NCBI RefSeq assembly: GCF_001244545.1
Contig: NZ_LN852692.1
Location: 124,001 to 188,000, forward strand
Direction: 5' to 3'
Origin: Candidatus Stoquefichus sp. SB1
Lineage (GTDB): Bacteria; Bacillota_I; Bacilli_A; Erysipelotrichales; Coprobacillaceae
DNA length: 64,000 nucleotides
The notes below the pieces were generated by a model. That model saw only the letters and a list, made by a program, of their open reading frames with translations, searched no databases and was not told the DNA's origin. The position numbers were made by a program, and so were the translations under genes. Shown in pieces: positions 4,491-18,509 of the stretch (position 1 is its first letter; each line of letters begins with the position of its first letter).

Positions 4491-5080
4491 TATATAGTTT
4501 TATAAAAAGATTGTTTGATATTGTTATATCATTGATTGTTTTACCTTTTATATTTATTTTATCTTTTTTTATAGCATTTTTTATAAAGTTGGAAGATAGA
4601 GGCAAAGTACTATATGTTTCACAGCGAATCGGTAAAAACTTTAAAGTGTTTGGAATGTACAAGTTTAGAACAATGATAGAAAATGCTCCAAATATCTTAA
4701 ATGAAGACGGAAGTACATATAATTCTAAAGATGATTTTAGAGTGACTAAAATCGGTAAATTTTTAAGAGAAACAAGTCTTGATGAGTTACCACAGTTCTG
4801 GAATGTTTTGAAAGGAGATATGAGCATTATTGGACCTAGACCAGGTGATTTAGAGTCAATAGATACATATCAAGAAGATGAAAAACCAAAAATGAAGGTT
4901 AAACCAGGAATTACGGGATATACACAAGCATATTTTAGAAATAGTTTAAATACAAGAGAGAAAAGATTATATGATGCATGGTATGCAGAAAATAAATCAA
5001 TTTTGTTAGATATAAAAATTTTTTTTAAGACATTAATAACAGTTATAAAAAAAGACAATATTTATACTAATAATAAATAG
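4487..5080 (+). CDS. Initiating phosphoglycosyl transferase (PglC/WcaJ-type sugar transferase)
   Basis: A 197-residue monotopic phosphoglycosyl transferase, the short PglC-like form. One hydrophobic re-entrant helix (about 8-33) anchors it in the membrane. The catalytic Asp-Glu dyad is D99-E100 in ETSLDELPQFW, and IIGPRPGD follows at about 114-121. The enzyme moves a sugar-1-phosphate from a UDP-sugar to undecaprenyl phosphate and so starts the repeat unit on the inner membrane face. PglC-type enzymes often prefer bacillosamine-like diamino sugars, which would fit the aminotransferase and acetyltransferase alongside, but this is not proven. Start and stop overlap both neighbours (ATGA with the ATP-grasp gene, and close to the acetyltransferase). 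Confidence 0.9.
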   Translation: MIYSFIKRLFDIVISLIVLPFIFILSFFIAFFIKLEDRGKVLYVSQRIGKNFKVFGMYKFRTMIENAPNILNEDGSTYNSKDDFRVTKIGKFLRETSLDELPQFWNVLKGDMSIIGPRPGDLESIDTYQEDEKPKMKVKPGITGYTQAYFRNSLNTREKRLYDAWYAENKSILLDIKIFFKTLITVIKKDNIYTNNK

Positions 5081-5127
5081 TGTCTGAGTTATTATTTAAT
5101 AAAGCAATACAGATTATGGAGAATACA

Positions 5128-5718
5128 ATGAAAAAAAGATATAGTTTTTCGGAGATTATAAAAAATGCCTATAGTATAATTTTTACAAAATTTTTTTACA
5201 AAGATGCTAGGTTGATACGTAAACCATTATATATAAGATGTAAGTATAAGAATAATTTTATATATGGAAAAGGATTAACTACAGGATATTGTTGTAGAAT
5301 AGAATTGGATGATGAATCAATTAAATTGGAAATTGGAATTAATTGTGGAATGGGAGATTATACATATATTGTTGCTACAAAACACGTGAAAATAGGGAAT
5401 AATGTTTTGATAACTTCACATGTATATATCAGTGACTCGAGTCATGGGAATTATGGAAAAAATGATACTTTCAAAATAGATACACCTTATACTGCTCTAA
5501 ATACGCGAAAAATAATTTGTAAAGATATAATTATTGGCAATAATGTGTGGATGGAAGAAAATGTTGTAATATTGCTAGGAATAAAAATTGGTGATGGTGC
5601 AATTGTTGGAGTTTCATCTGTTGTTACAAAAGATGTTGATAAGTATACAATTGTAGTTGGAAACCCAGCTAAACCAATAAAAAATATGACAATCAAAAAA
5701 AGGATGGGAGTATTATGA
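5128..5718 (+). CDS. Hexapeptide-repeat acyltransferase (WbbJ-like)
   Basis: A 196-residue left-handed beta-helix acyltransferase. Imperfect hexapeptides (for example IGINCGMGD, VKIGNNVLI, IIIGNNVWM, IKIGDGAIVG) and the closing VVGNPAKPIK are visible. The active-site type histidine lies in SDSSHGNYG. It probably O- or N-acetylates a sugar, using acetyl-CoA. The frame is open from a GTG at 5080 that overlaps the previous stop, but GGAG six bases before ATG 5128 makes the shorter form (MKKRYSF) the better choice. The stop overlaps the polymerase start by four bases. Confidence 0.85.
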   Translation: MKKRYSFSEIIKNAYSIIFTKFFYKDARLIRKPLYIRCKYKNNFIYGKGLTTGYCCRIELDDESIKLEIGINCGMGDYTYIVATKHVKIGNNVLITSHVYISDSSHGNYGKNDTFKIDTPYTALNTRKIICKDIIIGNNVWMEENVVILLGIKIGDGAIVGVSSVVTKDVDKYTIVVGNPAKPIKNMTIKKRMGVL

Positions 5719-11091: not shown

Positions 11092-12072
11092 ATGACAAAA
11101 GTATTAGTAACAGGAGCTGATGGGTTCATTGGTTCACATTTAACAGAAAGATTATTAGAAAGAGGATATGATGTACGAGCATTTGTATATTATAACTCAT
11201 TTAACAATTGGGGGTGGCTAGATACATTACCTAAAGATAAATTAGATAAGATAGATATCTTTGCAGGTGATATCAGAGATCCTAATGGCGTTAAGGAAGC
11301 CATGAAAGGTATTGATATTGTATTTCATTTAGCAGCATTGATAGCTATTCCTTTTAGTTATCATTCACCTGATTCCTATGTTGATACAAATATCAAAGGA
11401 ACTCTTAATGTTTTACAGGCTGCAAGGGATTTAGGAACAAAAAGAATCCTAGTCACTTCTACATCAGAGGTTTATGGAACTGCACAGTATGTTCCAATTG
11501 ATGAAAAACATCCATATCAGGGGCAATCACCATACAGTGCTACAAAAATTGGAGCAGATAGATTAGCTGAATCATTCTATCGCTCTTTTAATTTACCTTT
11601 AACAATTGTAAGACCATTTAATACATATGGACCTAGACAATCTGCAAGAGCTGTTATTCCTACAATCATTACACAATTGTTGGCTGGAAAAACAGAAATC
11701 AAGCTTGGTTCACTCACACCAACTCGTGATTTCAATTTTGTTAAGGATACAGCGGATGGTTTTATTGCCATTGCAGAATCAGACCAAACAATTGGTGAGG
11801 AAATTAACATTGCAACTCAGCATGAGATATCAATAGGTGAATTGGCCGAAGAGTTAATACGTCAAATCAATCCTGATGCAAAAATTATTTGTGAAGAAGA
11901 AAGATTAAGACCTGAAAAATCTGAAGTGAATAGATTGTTGGGATCAAATGAAAAAATCAAATCTCTTACTAACTGGGAACCTCAGTATAGTCTTTCAGAT
12001 GGTCTTGCAGAAACGATTGAATTCTTTAAGAAGAATTTAGATAAATATAAGGTTGATATCTACAACATTTAG
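11092..12072 (+). CDS. legB: LegB-type NDP-N-acetylglucosamine 4,6-dehydratase (SDR family)
   Basis: A 326-residue extended short-chain dehydrogenase. The NAD-binding turn GADGFIGSH is at 8-16, HLAALIAIP at about 80, TSTSEVYG at 122-129 and the catalytic YSATK with Y148 and K152. The whole N-terminal region reads as the LegB branch. In the legionaminic acid pathway LegB turns GDP- or UDP-GlcNAc into the 4-keto-6-deoxy sugar. It is the first gene of an uninterrupted seven-gene pathway ending at 18509. RBS AAGGAGATAAG precedes ATG 11092. Composition is less AT-rich than the transferases just upstream. Confidence 0.88.
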   Translation: MTKVLVTGADGFIGSHLTERLLERGYDVRAFVYYNSFNNWGWLDTLPKDKLDKIDIFAGDIRDPNGVKEAMKGIDIVFHLAALIAIPFSYHSPDSYVDTNIKGTLNVLQAARDLGTKRILVTSTSEVYGTAQYVPIDEKHPYQGQSPYSATKIGADRLAESFYRSFNLPLTIVRPFNTYGPRQSARAVIPTIITQLLAGKTEIKLGSLTPTRDFNFVKDTADGFIAIAESDQTIGEEINIATQHEISIGELAEELIRQINPDAKIICEEERLRPEKSEVNRLLGSNEKIKSLTNWEPQYSLSDGLAETIEFFKKNLDKYKVDIYNI

Positions 12073-12084
12073 GGAGGTGTTTTT

Positions 12085-13257
12085 ATGTCAAAATTTATTC
12101 CACTTTCAGTTCCAAATATTAGAGGAAATGAAATTAAGTATGTTACAGAAACACTAGAATCAGAGTGGGTTTCTACTGGTGGTGCAATGATAGAGAAATT
12201 TGAAAAGAACATGGCTGAATATGTTCATAGTAAAGGGGCAGTAGCGTGTCAATCAGGAACTGCTGGACTTCACCTGGCATTAAGATACTTAGGTGTCAAT
12301 GAAAATGATGCCGTGATTGTACCAACACTCACATTTATTGCAGCAGTCAATCCTGTAAAGTATGAACATGCTGAACCTGTTTTTATGGACTGTGATGATT
12401 CACTATGTATGGATCCAATAAAATTAAGAAAGTATTTGGAAACAGAGTGCTACTGTGAAAACGGTAAAGTTATGGATAGAGAACTAAACAGACAAATTAA
12501 GGCCATTGTCGTTGTACATGTTTTTGGGAATATGGCAGATATGGAATCAATCATGGAGATTGCTGATGAATATCATTTGCCTGTTATTGAGGATGCAACT
12601 GAATCAATAGGTACTTATTATATTGATGGAAAATATAAAGGAATGTATGCAGGGACAATTGGCACTATTGGTGTTTATTCTTTCAATGGAAATAAGATCA
12701 TGACTACTGGTGGAGGAGGAATGGTCATTTCTCAAAGCAGTGAGATATTAGAGAAAGTCAAGTATTTATCTACACAGGCTAAAGATGATACAGTTAATTT
12801 TATTCATAATGAAATAGGATTTAATTATCGAATGACAAACCTTCAGGCAGCTGTAGGACTTGCTCAGTTAGAACGACTAGAAGAATTTATTGAAACAAAG
12901 AAACGAAACTATTGGCATTATAAAAATGAACTTGATTCAATAGATGGAATACAGATTCTTGATTTTAGAAAGGATATCAGATCAAATTACTGGTTTTATT
13001 CATTAATGCTCAGTAATCCTAAAGATAAGCAAAAGATTATTGATGGACTCATGAAAAACAGTATTCAAAGTCGTCCTATATGGGGATTAATTTCTAAACA
13101 ACTGCCATATGTAAATTCAAAGACATATGATATAGAAAAAGCAGAATACTATTTTGATAGAATTGTTAATATTCCGTGTAGTACAAATCTGTGTGACGAG
13201 GATGTAACATATGTAATAGATGTTATTAAGAGATTAGTAGGTGGTTTTAATGGATAG
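12085..13257 (+). CDS. legC: LegC-type sugar nucleotide aminotransferase
   Basis: A 390-residue DegT-family aminotransferase, more specifically the LegC branch. The PLP lysine is K204 in SFNGNKIMTTGGGG and the ring-nitrogen aspartate D170 in EDATESIG. SEWVSTGGAMIEKFE near the start is the usual substrate-side motif. LegC adds the 4-amino group to the 4-keto-6-deoxy product of LegB, using glutamate. It is separate from the DegT enzyme at 2096, so the locus has two sugar aminotransferases. RBS GGGAGG is eight bases upstream. The gene overlaps the next start by eight bases. Confidence 0.88.
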   Translation: MSKFIPLSVPNIRGNEIKYVTETLESEWVSTGGAMIEKFEKNMAEYVHSKGAVACQSGTAGLHLALRYLGVNENDAVIVPTLTFIAAVNPVKYEHAEPVFMDCDDSLCMDPIKLRKYLETECYCENGKVMDRELNRQIKAIVVVHVFGNMADMESIMEIADEYHLPVIEDATESIGTYYIDGKYKGMYAGTIGTIGVYSFNGNKIMTTGGGGMVISQSSEILEKVKYLSTQAKDDTVNFIHNEIGFNYRMTNLQAAVGLAQLERLEEFIETKKRNYWHYKNELDSIDGIQILDFRKDIRSNYWFYSLMLSNPKDKQKIIDGLMKNSIQSRPIWGLISKQLPYVNSKTYDIEKAEYYFDRIVNIPCSTNLCDEDVTYVIDVIKRLVGGFNG

Positions 13258-14296
13258 AAATGTGAATGATTATTTAATATCACCAGATACTCTTCTTATA
13301 GATGCTATGAAGAAAATTGATATGAATACTAAAGGAATTGTTTATGTATGTCAAGATAAAAGATTAATCGGAGTTATTACAGATGGTGATATTAGAAGAT
13401 ATATTCTTAAAAATGCGTCAATTGAAGGTACTGCAGAAGATATAATGAATTCAAGTCCAAAATTTATTTATTATGGTGAGGATATAAATGCTAATGAATA
13501 TATGAAAACCCATTTTATTACTTCATTACCAATTTTAGACAAGAATAGGAATATAATTGAAATAAAGTTTTTGGATAAACCAAAAAGTAAAAAAGAATCT
13601 CTCAATGTCCCTGTTGTTATTATGGCTGGTGGAAAAGGAACACGACTTTATCCTTATACACAGATATTGCCTAAGCCACTTATACCTATTAATGACAAAA
13701 CAATAACAGAAATAATTATGGATCATTTTGAAGAGTATGATTGCAAATCATTTATTATGATTGTAAATTATAAAAAAGAATTTATAAAAGCTTTTTTTAA
13801 AGAAAATGAACAAGTAAGAGATGTTCATTTTTATGATGAAAATACATTTATGGGAACTGCTGGTGGACTTAAATTATTAAAAAATGAGATGAATAAAACT
13901 TTTTTTATGAGTAATTGTGATGTGTTAATCGAAGAAGATTATTCGGAGATATTGAAGTATCATAAAACGCATAAAAATATTATAACAATGGTATGTGCTT
14001 TAAAAAAGGAGATATTTCCATATGGAACTATTAAAACTGATGAGAACGGGAATGTATTACAACTTAAGGAAAAACCTAGCTTTGAATTTCTCACAAATAC
14101 AGGGTTATATGTGATTGAACCTGAATTTTTAGATTTTATACCTGATGATACTTTTATACATATTACAGATGTTATTCAAAAATGTATTGATGAAGGTCTT
14201 AATGTAGGTGTATATCCGATTAGAGAAGAATCATGGATGGATATGGGACAATTAGAAGAACTAGAAAAAATGAGAGAACGTATTAATGGAAAATAA
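13250..14296 (+). CDS. ptmE: CBS-domain plus sugar-phosphate nucleotidyltransferase (PtmE-like, GlcN-1-P guanylyltransferase type)
   Basis: 348 residues. Residues 1-110 hold a pair of CBS motifs (LIGVITDGDIRRYI; ITSLPILD). Residues 120-348 are a nucleotidyltransferase domain with the signature MAGGKGTRLYPYT at 125-137 and FMSNCDVLIEEDY as the metal-binding region. This fusion is that of Campylobacter PtmE, which makes GDP-glucosamine for the GDP-linked legionaminic acid route, so the pathway here probably uses GDP-sugars; that choice is inferred. The ATG at 13250 is preferred over a GTG at 13241 because AGGTGG lies five bases before it. The stop overlaps the next gene. Confidence 0.8.
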   Translation: MDRNVNDYLISPDTLLIDAMKKIDMNTKGIVYVCQDKRLIGVITDGDIRRYILKNASIEGTAEDIMNSSPKFIYYGEDINANEYMKTHFITSLPILDKNRNIIEIKFLDKPKSKKESLNVPVVIMAGGKGTRLYPYTQILPKPLIPINDKTITEIIMDHFEEYDCKSFIMIVNYKKEFIKAFFKENEQVRDVHFYDENTFMGTAGGLKLLKNEMNKTFFMSNCDVLIEEDYSEILKYHKTHKNIITMVCALKKEIFPYGTIKTDENGNVLQLKEKPSFEFLTNTGLYVIEPEFLDFIPDDTFIHITDVIQKCIDEGLNVGVYPIREESWMDMGQLEELEKMRERINGK

Positions 14297-14909
14297 AAAA
14301 CTGTTATTAATTGGTGGTGGAGGACACTGTCTTTCTGTTATAGATTCTCTAGATCGGTCTTTATATAGTGAGATTGCTATTATTGATCCTTATATTAAAA
14401 TTGGAACAGAAATATTGGGGATTAAAGTTGTAGGTGATGATGAAATGATTTATGAAATGTATAAAAAGGGTTATCATTATGCATTTATAGCCATAGGGAG
14501 TATAGGTAATACAATGACAAGAAGGAAATTGTATAAGAAATTATTAGAGATGAACTTTGAGTTTGTAAATATTATTGATCGTTCAGCAACTGTGTCTTCA
14601 GATTCGATTTTAGGAAATGGAATTTTTATTGGGAAGAACGCCATCATTAATGTTGGTTCAATAATAGAAGATCAAAGCATTATTAATTCGGGTGCTATTG
14701 TTGAACATGAATGTCATATTGGAGAGTTTGCTCATATTGCACCTGGAACTGTTATTTTAGGAAAGTGCAAAATAGGAGATGATACTCATATTGGGGCTAA
14801 TGCAACAATTCTTCAAGGTGTGCAAATAGGGAGAAATGTTATTATTGGAATGGGAAGTGTAGTTTTACATGATGTGGCAGAGAACGTTCAAAAATATGGA
14901 GTTATATAA
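14286..14909 (+). CDS. NeuD/PglD-family sugar N-acetyltransferase (LegH role likely)
   Basis: A 207-residue protein: an N-terminal Rossmann-like domain (LLLIGGGGHCLSVIDSL) and a C-terminal left-handed beta helix of hexapeptide repeats (ILGNGIFIGKNAIINVG; IGEFAHIAPGTVILGK). This is the NeuD/PglD architecture. The catalytic base is the histidine of VEHECHIGEFAHIAPG. In a legionaminic acid pathway the expected job is acetylation of the 4-amino group made by LegC (LegH). It could instead O-acetylate the finished nonulosonate. It overlaps the upstream gene by 11 bases. Confidence 0.8.
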   Translation: MENKKLLLIGGGGHCLSVIDSLDRSLYSEIAIIDPYIKIGTEILGIKVVGDDEMIYEMYKKGYHYAFIAIGSIGNTMTRRKLYKKLLEMNFEFVNIIDRSATVSSDSILGNGIFIGKNAIINVGSIIEDQSIINSGAIVEHECHIGEFAHIAPGTVILGKCKIGDDTHIGANATILQGVQIGRNVIIGMGSVVLHDVAENVQKYGVI

Positions 14910-15068
14910 AATATAAATAACTTTAAGTGAATGAAATTAATTAGGAAAATGATATGGAATAAAAGGGTTTATTTACTAGAAAATTTCATAATAAAGAAGA
15001 TTATTTGTTCATAGGATAATTTATTCTGAATATCTTAAAGTTAAAAGAAGAAAGGAGTGCAGAAAAAA
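14910..15068. other. Intergenic gap with nested inverted repeats and a degenerate copy of the inverton repeat
   Basis: 159 bases. AACTTTAAG (14919-14927) is repeated inverted as CTTAAAGTT (15034-15042). Inside, GATATGGAATAAA has an imperfect inverted partner near 15021-15035. The string at 15006-15030 matches the left inverton repeat (771-795) at 18 of 25 positions, including TATTCT. No clear promoter was found. The RBS AAAGGAG (15051-15057) belongs to the next gene. Confidence 0.35.
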
Positions 15069-16067
15069 ATGAAAACATATATCATTGCTGAAGCAGGAGT
15101 CAACCATAATGGCGATAAAAATTTAGCTTATAAATTGATTGATAAGGCGTGTGAAGCGGGTGTGGATTGCATTAAATTTCAGACGTTTAAAGCAGAAAAT
15201 CTTGTATCCAAAGGTACTGAATTGGCAGATTATCAGAAAAATAATCTTCATAGTTCTGATACTAAACAAATAGAAATGCTAAAAAAATTAGAACTTTCAT
15301 ATCATGATTTTGCTGAACTAAGAGACTATGCCATAAGTAAAGGACTTGATTTCTGTTCTACAGCCTTTGATAGTGATAGTGTTGAATTTCTTAATACAAT
15401 TGCTATGCCTTTTTGGAAAATTCCATCAGGAGAAGTTACAAATCTACCTTTGATTATTCAAATAGCTAAATTAAATAAACCAATTATTATGTCTACAGGT
15501 ATGTGTACCTTAAGTGAAATTCAATTTATTTTGGATCAGATTCGCAAGTATAATAATCAAAATATTATTCTTCTTCATTGTAACACGGAATATCCAACAC
15601 CATATGAAGATGTGAATCTAAAAGCAATGCTTACTTTAAAAGAAACATTTAATGTAGATGTAGGATATTCAGATCACACATTGGGGATTGAGGTATCACT
15701 TGCTGCTGTCGCTTTAGGTGCTAAAGTTATTGAAAAGCACTTTACATTAGATAAATCAATGGATGGTCCTGATCATGTGGCAAGTTTGGATCCTGATGAA
15801 TTAAAATCAATGGTTGCAGGAATTAGACATATAGAAAAATCACTAGGAGTAAATGAGAAAAAAGTATCTCATTCAGAATTTAAAAATAAAGAAGTTGCAC
15901 GAAAATCTATAGTTGCTAAAAAAGATATCAAAAAAGGTGAAGTCTTGACTGAAGAGAACTTAACGACCAAAAGACCTGGAACAGGAATATCACCTATGAA
16001 ATGGTATGATGTATTAGGACAAGTGGCAAAAAGAGATTATCAGAAAGATGAGCTGATTAAATTATGA
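15069..16067 (+). CDS. legI: Legionaminate/N-acetylneuraminate synthase (LegI/NeuB family)
   Basis: 333 residues. The TIM-barrel domain begins YIIAEAGVNHNGD and carries CIKFQTFK (about 38), KIPSGEVTNLPL (about 118) and DVGYSDHTLGIE (about 197), all hallmarks of PEP-condensing NeuB-type synthases. A C-terminal antifreeze-like SAF domain follows from about residue 275 (ARKSIVAKKDIKKGEVL). The enzyme joins PEP to a 6-carbon N-acyl sugar to make the 9-carbon nonulosonic acid. With LegB, LegC and LegG around it, legionaminate is the probable product. ATG 15069 is chosen over a GTG that overlaps the RBS AAAGGAG. It overlaps the next gene by four bases. Confidence 0.9.
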   Translation: MKTYIIAEAGVNHNGDKNLAYKLIDKACEAGVDCIKFQTFKAENLVSKGTELADYQKNNLHSSDTKQIEMLKKLELSYHDFAELRDYAISKGLDFCSTAFDSDSVEFLNTIAMPFWKIPSGEVTNLPLIIQIAKLNKPIIMSTGMCTLSEIQFILDQIRKYNNQNIILLHCNTEYPTPYEDVNLKAMLTLKETFNVDVGYSDHTLGIEVSLAAVALGAKVIEKHFTLDKSMDGPDHVASLDPDELKSMVAGIRHIEKSLGVNEKKVSHSEFKNKEVARKSIVAKKDIKKGEVLTEENLTTKRPGTGISPMKWYDVLGQVAKRDYQKDELIKL

Positions 16068-17242
16068 AAAAAATAGCCATTATCACAGCAACACGAGCAG
16101 AATATGGACTTTTCGTTCCTATCATTAGAGAATTTAGAAAACGAGAAAATAATGATTTTCATATTGATCTTATTATTACAGGAACACATTTGTCTAATGA
16201 GTATGGACACACAATAGATGAAATAAAAAAAGATGAATTTAGAATTGATTATTTGATAGATATACCAGTAAATAATTTTAAAGCAAAAGATATATCAAAT
16301 AATATGGCAACTACACTTATAAAATTTACTGAACATTTTGAAAATGAAAAATATGATGCAATTATGGTTTTGGGAGATAGATATGAAATCCTTTCTGTAG
16401 CTATAGCAGCAATGAATACCAAAATACCAATATTTCATTTATGTGGTGGTGATACAACTGAAGGTGCAATAGATGAGGGAATTAGACATTCTATCACAAA
16501 ATTAAGTTATCTCCATTTTGTCTCAAATGAAATAAGTAGAAGAAGAGTTATTCAATTGGGAGAGAATCCATCAAGAGTTTTTAATGTTGGCTCAACCAGT
16601 GTTGATAATATTCTTCATACTGATTTATTATCAAAAAGTGATGTTTTGAAATCGATAGGACTTAATGAATGCAGATATGCGTTATGCACATATCATCCAG
16701 TGACATTAAATAATGTAGATTTACATAAACTGGTTTATGACTTTCTTGATGTCATAAGAGATTGCAAGGATATAGAGTTCATTGTAACAAAATCAAATTC
16801 TGATCTGGGCGGCTCTTTGATTAATCAAATTCTTGATCAGGAACAGAATAAAATTCCAAATTTGCATGTTTACACATCTTTAGGCATGCAAAGATATTTA
16901 TCATTAATGAAATATAGTGAATTTGTATTAGGTAACTCATCAAGTGGGATTATTGAAACACCATCATTTAAAATACCTACAGTGAATATAGGCGACAGGC
17001 AAAAAGGTCGTTTACAATGCGATTCTATCATTAATTGTTTAGATAATAAAAATTCAATCATGCAAGCTGTATCAATTGCTAGAAGTGTAAAAATGAAAGA
17101 AAAGTGCAAAGAAATTATTTCACCATATGGTGAGGGAAATGCAGCCATACAAATTGTAGATATATCTATGAGTTTTCTTGAGAAAACTATAGATTTAAAG
17201 AAGACATTTTATGATATAAAAGAGGAATTTATAAAGGAGTAA
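16064..17242 (+). CDS. legG: Hydrolysing NDP-sugar 2-epimerase (LegG/NeuC family)
   Basis: A 392-residue GT-B-fold epimerase. It starts KKIAIITATRAEYGLF, has VLGDRYEILS near residue 108, HLCGGDTTEGAIDEGIRHS near residue 133 and FVLGNSSSGIIETPS near residue 287. These are the conserved blocks of NeuC/LegG, which hydrolyse the NDP bond and invert C2 to release the free sugar that LegI condenses. LegG works on the diacetamido trideoxy sugar; NeuC on UDP-GlcNAc. Context favours LegG. It is coupled to LegI by an ATGA overlap and followed closely by LegF. Confidence 0.88.
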   Translation: MKKIAIITATRAEYGLFVPIIREFRKRENNDFHIDLIITGTHLSNEYGHTIDEIKKDEFRIDYLIDIPVNNFKAKDISNNMATTLIKFTEHFENEKYDAIMVLGDRYEILSVAIAAMNTKIPIFHLCGGDTTEGAIDEGIRHSITKLSYLHFVSNEISRRRVIQLGENPSRVFNVGSTSVDNILHTDLLSKSDVLKSIGLNECRYALCTYHPVTLNNVDLHKLVYDFLDVIRDCKDIEFIVTKSNSDLGGSLINQILDQEQNKIPNLHVYTSLGMQRYLSLMKYSEFVLGNSSSGIIETPSFKIPTVNIGDRQKGRLQCDSIINCLDNKNSIMQAVSIARSVKMKEKCKEIISPYGEGNAAIQIVDISMSFLEKTIDLKKTFYDIKEEFIKE

Positions 17243-17246
17243 ATTT

Positions 17247-18509
17247 ATGAAGAAGATAGCCATTATCCCAGCTCGCTCTGGATCAAAAGGATTGCCTCAT
17301 AAAAATATACTTAATTTGTATGGGAAACCATTAATTGCATGGACAATTGAAGCAGCAGTTAAAAGCAATCAGTTTGATAAAATTATTGTATCTACAGATT
17401 CTAAGCAATATGGAAAAATAAGCGAAGAATATGGCGCAGAAGTTATTTATAGAGATGAGAGCATTTCGAATGATACTGCATCTACGTATGATGTTCTTAA
17501 AGATTTGTTTTCTAAAGTAGATGTTTCTTATATTGATTATTTTGTACTACTTCAACCAACATCACCATTTAGAAATGCAGAACATATAAATGAAGCTATT
17601 AAATTATATGAAAAAAACTATTACCAATATGATACTTTAGTAAGTGTAACTGAGGCACATAAATCATCAGATTTAATTAAACCTCTTGATAAAGATCGAA
17701 GTTTAAAATACTTTAATAATGATTTTTCAAATTATAAGAGGCAACAATATCATGAGTATGAACCTAATGGGGCAATTTACATATCAAAAATCCAATCCTA
17801 TTTAAAAATCAAACAATTCTTGGGAAGCCAAGGTATAGCTTATATAATGAATGAAGATGATTCAATTGATATAGATGGAAGAAATGATTTTGAATTAGCA
17901 TATAATGTGATTTCTAGAAAAAACATAATTGATGAAAGAAGAAAAATTGTTAAAGAAAGAATTTTGGAGAAGAAACAATTAGAAATAAGTGTGAAACATC
18001 CAATAACTTTAATAGGAAATTCTTTTTTTGATAATTGGAATGTAGAAAAAATATGTAATAAAAAAGTTAATAATTGGGGAATCAAGAATGCAACATCAAA
18101 ATTATATTTGAAATATTTTTTAAATGATATTTCATTTGATGAATTGGGAGAGTATATATTAGTTATGTTTGGAATTAATGAATTATTATGTGGAAATAGC
18201 ATAAACGATACAGTTTCCAGTATAAATCATTGTATAGAAAAAATTCGAACATATCATCCTCATAAAATTATTTTTGTGAATATGTTGAATGTTAATGGAA
18301 GAATAGATATAGGAAATGAATTAGTAAATGAGTGCAAGCAATGTTTTTCAAAAAGTATTAAAGCAGATAAAATTATTCAAACAGATGATTTAAATGATGA
18401 GTTTGGATGGTTAAACAAAGATTATACGGATGACGGATTATATTTGAATGCAAAAGGTTACGATTTTTTATTAAGTATTATAGAAAAAGAGATTTTAAAT
18501 AATTTATGA
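17247..18509 (+). CDS. legF: CMP-legionaminate/sialate synthetase fused to an SGNH esterase-like domain
   Basis: A 420-residue fusion. Residues 1-225 are a CMP-nonulosonate cytidylyltransferase (IIPARSGSKGLPHKN at 6-20; LLQPTSPFRN at 101-110; DIDGRNDFELA near 208). Residues 250-420 form an SGNH-hydrolase-like domain: block I GNSFF with S259, block II NNWG with G278, block III FGINE with N311, and block V DGLYLN at 396-401. The expected catalytic histidine of block V is replaced by Y399, so the second domain may be inactive or altered. A comparable two-domain enzyme in group B Streptococcus joins CMP activation to O-acetyl removal. RBS AAAGGAG is present. This is the last gene of the pathway. 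Confidence 0.87.
   Translation: MKKIAIIPARSGSKGLPHKNILNLYGKPLIAWTIEAAVKSNQFDKIIVSTDSKQYGKISEEYGAEVIYRDESISNDTASTYDVLKDLFSKVDVSYIDYFVLLQPTSPFRNAEHINEAIKLYEKNYYQYDTLVSVTEAHKSSDLIKPLDKDRSLKYFNNDFSNYKRQQYHEYEPNGAIYISKIQSYLKIKQFLGSQGIAYIMNEDDSIDIDGRNDFELAYNVISRKNIIDERRKIVKERILEKKQLEISVKHPITLIGNSFFDNWNVEKICNKKVNNWGIKNATSKLYLKYFLNDISFDELGEYILVMFGINELLCGNSINDTVSSINHCIEKIRTYHPHKIIFVNMLNVNGRIDIGNELVNECKQCFSKSIKADKIIQTDDLNDEFGWLNKDYTDDGLYLNAKGYDFLLSIIEKEILNNL

Follow-up and report, generated by a model that had tools for sequence, protein, structure and literature searches.

A sialic-type NeuA fusion with a putative pseudo-esterase domain, encoded by the last gene of a legionaminic-acid operon in Candidatus Stoquefichus sp. 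SB1

The last gene of a legionaminic-acid (Leg) operon in Candidatus Stoquefichus sp. SB1 encodes a fusion of a NeuA-type CMP-nonulosonate synthetase with an SGNH domain, in which two of the four SGNH signature residues, the block II Gly and the block V His, are lost, while the Ser and the Asn are kept. Leg is a bacterial sugar akin to sialic acid. The gene was analyzed within a stretch of 64,000 nucleotides (contig NZ_LN852692.1, positions 124,001 to 188,000), referred to as the window, and all positions given below are those of the window, with the operon genes and all parts of the fusion protein located on the forward strand. The comparison supporting the residue losses comprised eight intact clade members and 63 domains. 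Taking the evidence together, the gene is probably a transplanted NeuA fusion of sialic-acid descent, whose SGNH half is now a pseudo-esterase retained for structural purposes. According to this interpretation, a bifunctional NeuA (CMP-sialate synthetase and O-acetylesterase) would have displaced an unfused resident LegF from the last position of the Leg operon, and its N-terminal domain would still make a CMP-sugar, presumably now CMP-Leg. The SGNH domain, with its general base (His to Tyr399) and its oxyanion Gly (to Asn281) gone, would have lost its activity. The esterase may have become dispensable on Leg, so that the catalytic residues were lost while the fold stayed, and the folded domain would have been kept, most likely for assembly or stability of the enzyme.

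As originally predicted, the gene occupies positions 17247-18509 as a single uninterrupted frame and translates into 420 amino acids. Its product consists of an N-terminal cytidylyltransferase domain (residues 1-225, positions 17247-17921), which matched the Pfam family CTP_transf_3 (PF02348) across residues 4-189 with 134 bits (cut-off 22.6), and an SGNH/GDSL-fold domain (residues 250-420, positions 17994-18506), for which Lipase_GDSL_2 (PF13472) was matched across residues 271-406 with 39.6 bits (cut-off 32.9). AlphaFold2 predicted two domains with confidence (mean pLDDT 86.2), the SGNH fold among them, and placed a long linker helix of 34 residues (residues 212-245, positions 17880-17981) between both. 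In structure comparisons, the N-terminal domain matched the CMP-Neu5Ac synthetase 6ifd (Z 27.3), and the best solved-fold match of the C-terminal domain was the Phocaeicola sialate O-acetylesterase 7pzg (Z 24.1, 188 residues), followed by 6njc and 2hsj (Z 23.9 each). The Phocaeicola vulgatus enzyme (7pzg and 6njc), being the closest solved fold with Z of about 24 over 188-189 residues, differs from the window protein in that it carries no synthetase fusion and possesses the DGLH motif. Residues R10, K19, Q103, D208, and D210 of the synthetase domain correspond to Arg12, Lys21, Gln104, Asp209, and Asp211 of the Neisseria enzyme, for which nucleotide or metal roles have been described (PMC2901514), and all five are present.

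The order of the two domains, synthetase followed by SGNH, is the same as in bifunctional NeuA. NeuA of E. coli K1 (UTI89, WP_001259305.1) shares this layout and is 45% identical overall (N-terminal domain 51%, C-terminal domain 33%). However, it features the motifs GHS, GI-A-G, and DGLH, and is located beside neuD, neuB, and neuC homologues with no leg genes. The likeness to NeuA of group B Streptococcus (GBS), put forward in the original prediction and drawn here by description only, is correct, since NeuA has been reported to have an esterase function there, acting as a bifunctional synthetase/O-acetylesterase (Lewis et al. 2007 via PMC8319020).

The window operon represents a complete Leg gene set, comprising legB (11092-12072; TIGR04180, 527 bits, cut-off 475), the aminotransferase gene legC (12085-13257; TIGR04181, 479.6 bits, cut-off 420), a ptmE-like gene with CBS and nucleotidyltransferase domains (13241-14296; Pfam; with a homologue in the same order in the Leg clusters L182 and L186), a NeuD/PglD-family acetyltransferase gene (14286-14909; LegH by descent, grouping with L182 and L186), a NeuB-family synthase gene (15057-16067; LegI by descent), a NeuC-family epimerase/hydrolase gene (16064-17242; LegG by descent), and, lastly, the synthetase-SGNH gene. 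LegB and LegC were named from their TIGR matches, whereas ptmE, legG, legH, and legI are C. jejuni-type names which we take to apply to the window genes. The gene order is repeated in L182 and L186 (with legB of L186 cut by the contig end), an unfused LegF gene being the last one in both.

Identities to ten Leg-type loci, counted where the respective gene is present, were 81-83% for legB (six loci, full length), 60-63% for legC (two loci), 44-48% for ptmE (seven loci; weak partial match in L185), 58-63% for neuB (eight loci; partial match in L184), 44-51% for neuC, and 43-48% for legF (ten loci each). The unfused LegF proteins of the relatives' operons (L177-L183 and L186) are encoded by the gene that follows neuC and closes the operon, a position shared with the window gene; unlike the window protein, they lack an SGNH domain, are 226-234 amino acids long, share 43-48% identity with it, and form a separate clade (bootstrap 100). 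Compared to eight sialic-acid clusters, identities of 52-55% (neuB), 37-42% (neuC), and 50-60% (synthetase N-terminal domain) were obtained.

The ancestry of the operon is mixed, with neuB and neuC belonging to the Leg side and the synthetase to the sialic-acid side. Maximum-likelihood trees were calculated from 17 sequences each, namely the window, eight Leg-cluster, and eight sialic-cluster sequences. Both the neuB and the neuC tree separated the eight sialic-cluster sequences from the window and the eight Leg-cluster sequences (ultrafast bootstrap 100 each), whereas the legF tree separated the eight Leg-cluster sequences from the window and the eight sialic-cluster sequences (ultrafast bootstrap 100, branch 0.73). 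In the acetyltransferase tree, the window grouped with L182 and L186 (split 99). The designation LegF in the original prediction is thus appropriate by operon position, but not by descent, as the enzyme groups with the sialic-cluster NeuA (bootstrap 100). Furthermore, 16 alignment columns separate the two sets of synthetases, and the window is sialic-like in 11 of them, Leg-like in one, and neither in four. Residues 178 and 192, corresponding to Tyr179 and Phe193 in the sugar pocket of the Neisseria enzyme (PMC2901514), are among the exceptions, which hints at an adaptation of the synthetase to another sugar. Most likely, a fusion of NeuA and esterase was captured from a sialic-acid cluster, replacing LegF at the operon end; this would be a clear example of the transfer of a synthetase from one nonulosonate pathway to another.

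The active-site residues were evaluated in an alignment with the fusions of E. coli K1, E. albertii, and four more genomes of that family, and with the SGNH modules of Massilimicrobiota An134, Segatella, and three Pasteurellaceae, following the block roles described for SGNH enzymes (PMC9487903). The Ser at the nucleophile position of block I is kept (Ser259, codon tct, 18021-18023), embedded in GNS as compared to GHS in the clade relatives. Block II reads NNWGIKN in the window, where the second Gly of the relatives' GI-x-G, contributing to the oxyanion hole, is replaced by Asn281 (18087-18089). Asn311 of block III (18177-18179) is kept within GINE (G-x-ND in the relatives), as is Asp396 of block V (18432-18434), while the catalytic His of the relatives' DGLH is replaced by Tyr399 (DGLY, codon tat, 18441-18443). 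The residue set of the bifunctional NeuA esterase is, therefore, incomplete in the window.

The replacement of the block V His, the core of the original prediction, was accordingly confirmed, and so was the retention of the Ser and Asn blocks; the Gly block is recognisable, but its oxyanion-hole Gly is not kept. An inactive SGNH domain, previously suggested from the His position, gains support from two lost signature residues. The loss of the His is considered weightier than that of the Gly, because an SGNH enzyme with Ser at the block II Gly position, OatA of S. pneumoniae, is known (PMC9487903). The change to Asn281 may be mild, as this position supplies a backbone amide only.

To place these replacements in context, 63 distinct SGNH domains in the fetched loci were surveyed using a profile from 11 intact domains, which favours intact ones, with fragments being counted and L021 absent from the listed departures. 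The block V column contained His in 60 domains, a gap in one, Asn in one, and Tyr in one (the window); at block II, 59 domains had Gly, two a gap, one Ala, and one, the window, Asn. The comparison set was assembled without Streptococcus and Clostridia centres, and the GBS NeuA sequence itself was left out. The losses represented by Tyr399 and Asn281 go beyond chance variation. Whether the Tyr is common to fused SGNH domains, as the original prediction had asked, is answered in the negative, the window standing alone among the 63. A scan of genome contigs yielded eight loci. In two synthetase-SGNH fusions of the taxonomic order to which the window also belongs, L020 and L021, the block V His is also absent, being Asn and Gln, respectively; their SGNH halves represent a distinct, strongly diverged pair. 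L158, a further fusion detected together with them, possesses DGLH but a degraded synthetase half. L151 (G051), L152 (G044), and L158 (G060) constitute a separate synthetase-SGNH fusion group, in which two members keep the synthetase half and have Asn or Gln in block V, and one has DGLH and the degraded synthetase half. Across 19 kb, neither L151 nor L152 yielded a neuB homologue.

Loss of one half was observed in both directions, the esterase His being lost in the window, L020, and L021, and the synthetase half being degraded in An134 and L158. In An134 (L059/L154), the synthetase is 60% identical to the window N-terminal domain and the SGNH module belongs to the same clade; unlike in the window, the module is found on separate proteins whose synthetase half is degenerate, and no legB or legC match was obtained in 19 kb. 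Two tandem open reading frames of this type (L059:4456-7262) precede an unfused NeuA gene, the first keeping DGLHLN and the second being cut by TGA before block V. This arrangement resembles what reciprocal loss would leave behind once a bifunctional neuA had been duplicated. If the pattern were wider, the SGNH module would be a general add-on of nonulosonate pathways and not only an esterase.

A reason for the loss of the esterase may be found in the chemistry of the sugar. NeuD of E. coli is reported to O-acetylate Neu5Ac in its free form, NeuA taking the acetyl group off only once the sugar has been activated to the CMP form, and E. coli K1 without neuD to lack a capsule (PMC8653822); NeuD and NeuA of GBS have likewise been described to function as a pair (PMC8319020). 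Leg is a 5,7-diacetamido-3,5,7,9-tetradeoxy sugar (PMC7439481). Since C7 bears an acetamido group and C9 lacks oxygen, O7- and O9-acetyl esters should not be able to form. The esterase would be dispensable because its substrates in sialic-acid pathways, formed by NeuD and cleaved by NeuA, are these very esters. With regard to the purpose of this detour of acetylation and deacetylation in the sialic-acid pathway, the window protein would represent a natural NeuA-type enzyme apparently working without de-O-acetylation, on a sugar without the usually acetylated hydroxyls, and its comparison with intact relatives would separate the esterase role of the SGNH domain from its role within the synthetase. 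Clusters with His-bearing SGNH modules (UTI89, E. albertii, four more genomes of that family, Massilimicrobiota An134, and Segatella) encode neuD, neuB, neuA, and neuC homologues, no legC, and at most distant legB matches; the link between sugar type and His loss is drawn from a single Leg operon with such a fusion (n=1). Acetylation of Leg at O4 or O8 could still occur, and 4-O-acetylated nonulosonic acids have been reported for Acinetobacter (PMC6586298). A hexapeptide acyltransferase encoded in the capsule locus (5080-5718) could O-acetylate the polysaccharide.

Constraint on the SGNH half was assessed from the 34 columns that are invariant in the other eight clade members, of which the window keeps 25, including Ser259, Asn311, and Asp396, and loses nine. 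The losses do not cluster in these catalytic regions (5/17 in blocks and 4/17 elsewhere, the grouping being our own). The window branch is 1.69 for the SGNH half and 0.47 for the N-terminal half, a ratio of 3.55 as compared to 1.05 to 3.13 for the other eight; as the highest of these values belongs to the intact SGNH domain of Segatella, the excess in the window is modest. Despite the long branch, the SGNH half contains neither a stop nor a frameshift, and it is best regarded as fast-evolving and unbroken, with constraint that appears relaxed or shifted, rather than as a dead stretch.

The three kept residues argue against a purely structural role, for which they would not be needed, and leave some room, albeit limited, for the alternative already raised in outline in the original prediction, namely that the domain binds rather than cleaves; its old pocket would hold either Leg (free or as CMP-Leg) or an intermediate of the capsule, and would regulate or tether the synthetase. 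This reading is consistent with the retention of Ser259, Asn311, and Asp396 while nine of the 34 otherwise invariant columns changed, and with a well-predicted, unbroken fold; on the other hand, the residues may have been kept by chance, and no precedent was met in this clade, so that binding is considered rather unlikely. It is similarly doubtful that the former esterase pocket acts as a sensor for CMP-Leg (or Leg), tuning output or handing on CMP-Leg, in which case Ser, Asn, and Asp would bind while Tyr399 and Asn281 would close off catalysis.

Recent decay, in which a functionless esterase half is being lost, has parallels in a NeuA-SGNH gene interrupted by numerous stop codons (L155, G1163) and in the An134 copy cut by TGA, yet the window frame stayed complete through the extensive amino-acid change described above and kept most of the invariant columns, which makes this explanation improbable.

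Residual activity as an esterase or acyltransferase, using another residue as base or a weakened mechanism centred on Ser, could draw on the kept Ser, Asn, and Asp and on the existence of SGNH enzymes without the Asp or with altered oxyanion holes (PMC9487903). The original prediction had likewise considered a different base. However, none of the four other C-terminal His residues (251, 328, 337, and 339) is a candidate according to the AlphaFold2 model, since they are predicted ahead of strand 1, within helix 319-336, and directly preceding strand 4, away from the loops of Ser259 and Tyr399, and Tyr was found in none of the 62 other domains; retained catalysis is, thus, quite improbable. A sequencing or assembly error, for which the single-base change from His to Tyr might speak, can practically be dismissed, since two separate catalytic positions differ, the change from Gly to Asn requiring at least two base changes, the domain is changed throughout with its frame intact, and the three other SGNH proteins of the genome, encoded on other contigs, all keep DGLH. 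Replacement of the esterase by one of these three was not supported, as they look like ordinary stand-alone proteins, although a partner role is conceivable. The transplanted fusion with a structurally retained pseudo-esterase is, therefore, the preferred interpretation.

Regarding the wider distribution of the fusion, no relatives were confirmed in IMG/VR, 77 plasmid records matched but none across at least 80% of the query, and no title on a fusion of NeuA/LegF with an inactive SGNH domain was found among the open-licence papers searched. The SGNH module itself was encountered in other contexts. In Segatella baroniae B14 (L066:4900-6561), it is fused to NeuB instead of NeuA (553 amino acids, DGLHLS), which indicates that the module moves between nonulosonate enzymes. 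Stand-alone SGNH proteins of Pasteurellaceae (L061-L065) resemble the NeuA-fused module (GHSLFDMW, DGLHF).

Within the window, no RNA element reached Rfam gathering scores between positions 600 and 20500. A tandem pair of NusG-family genes (976-1976) opens the capsule locus and perhaps encodes specialised antiterminators. Finally, legB (11092-12072) is 81-83% identical to its counterparts in relatives of another family, as compared to about 43-63% for the other operon genes, and may have been moved or be unusually constrained.
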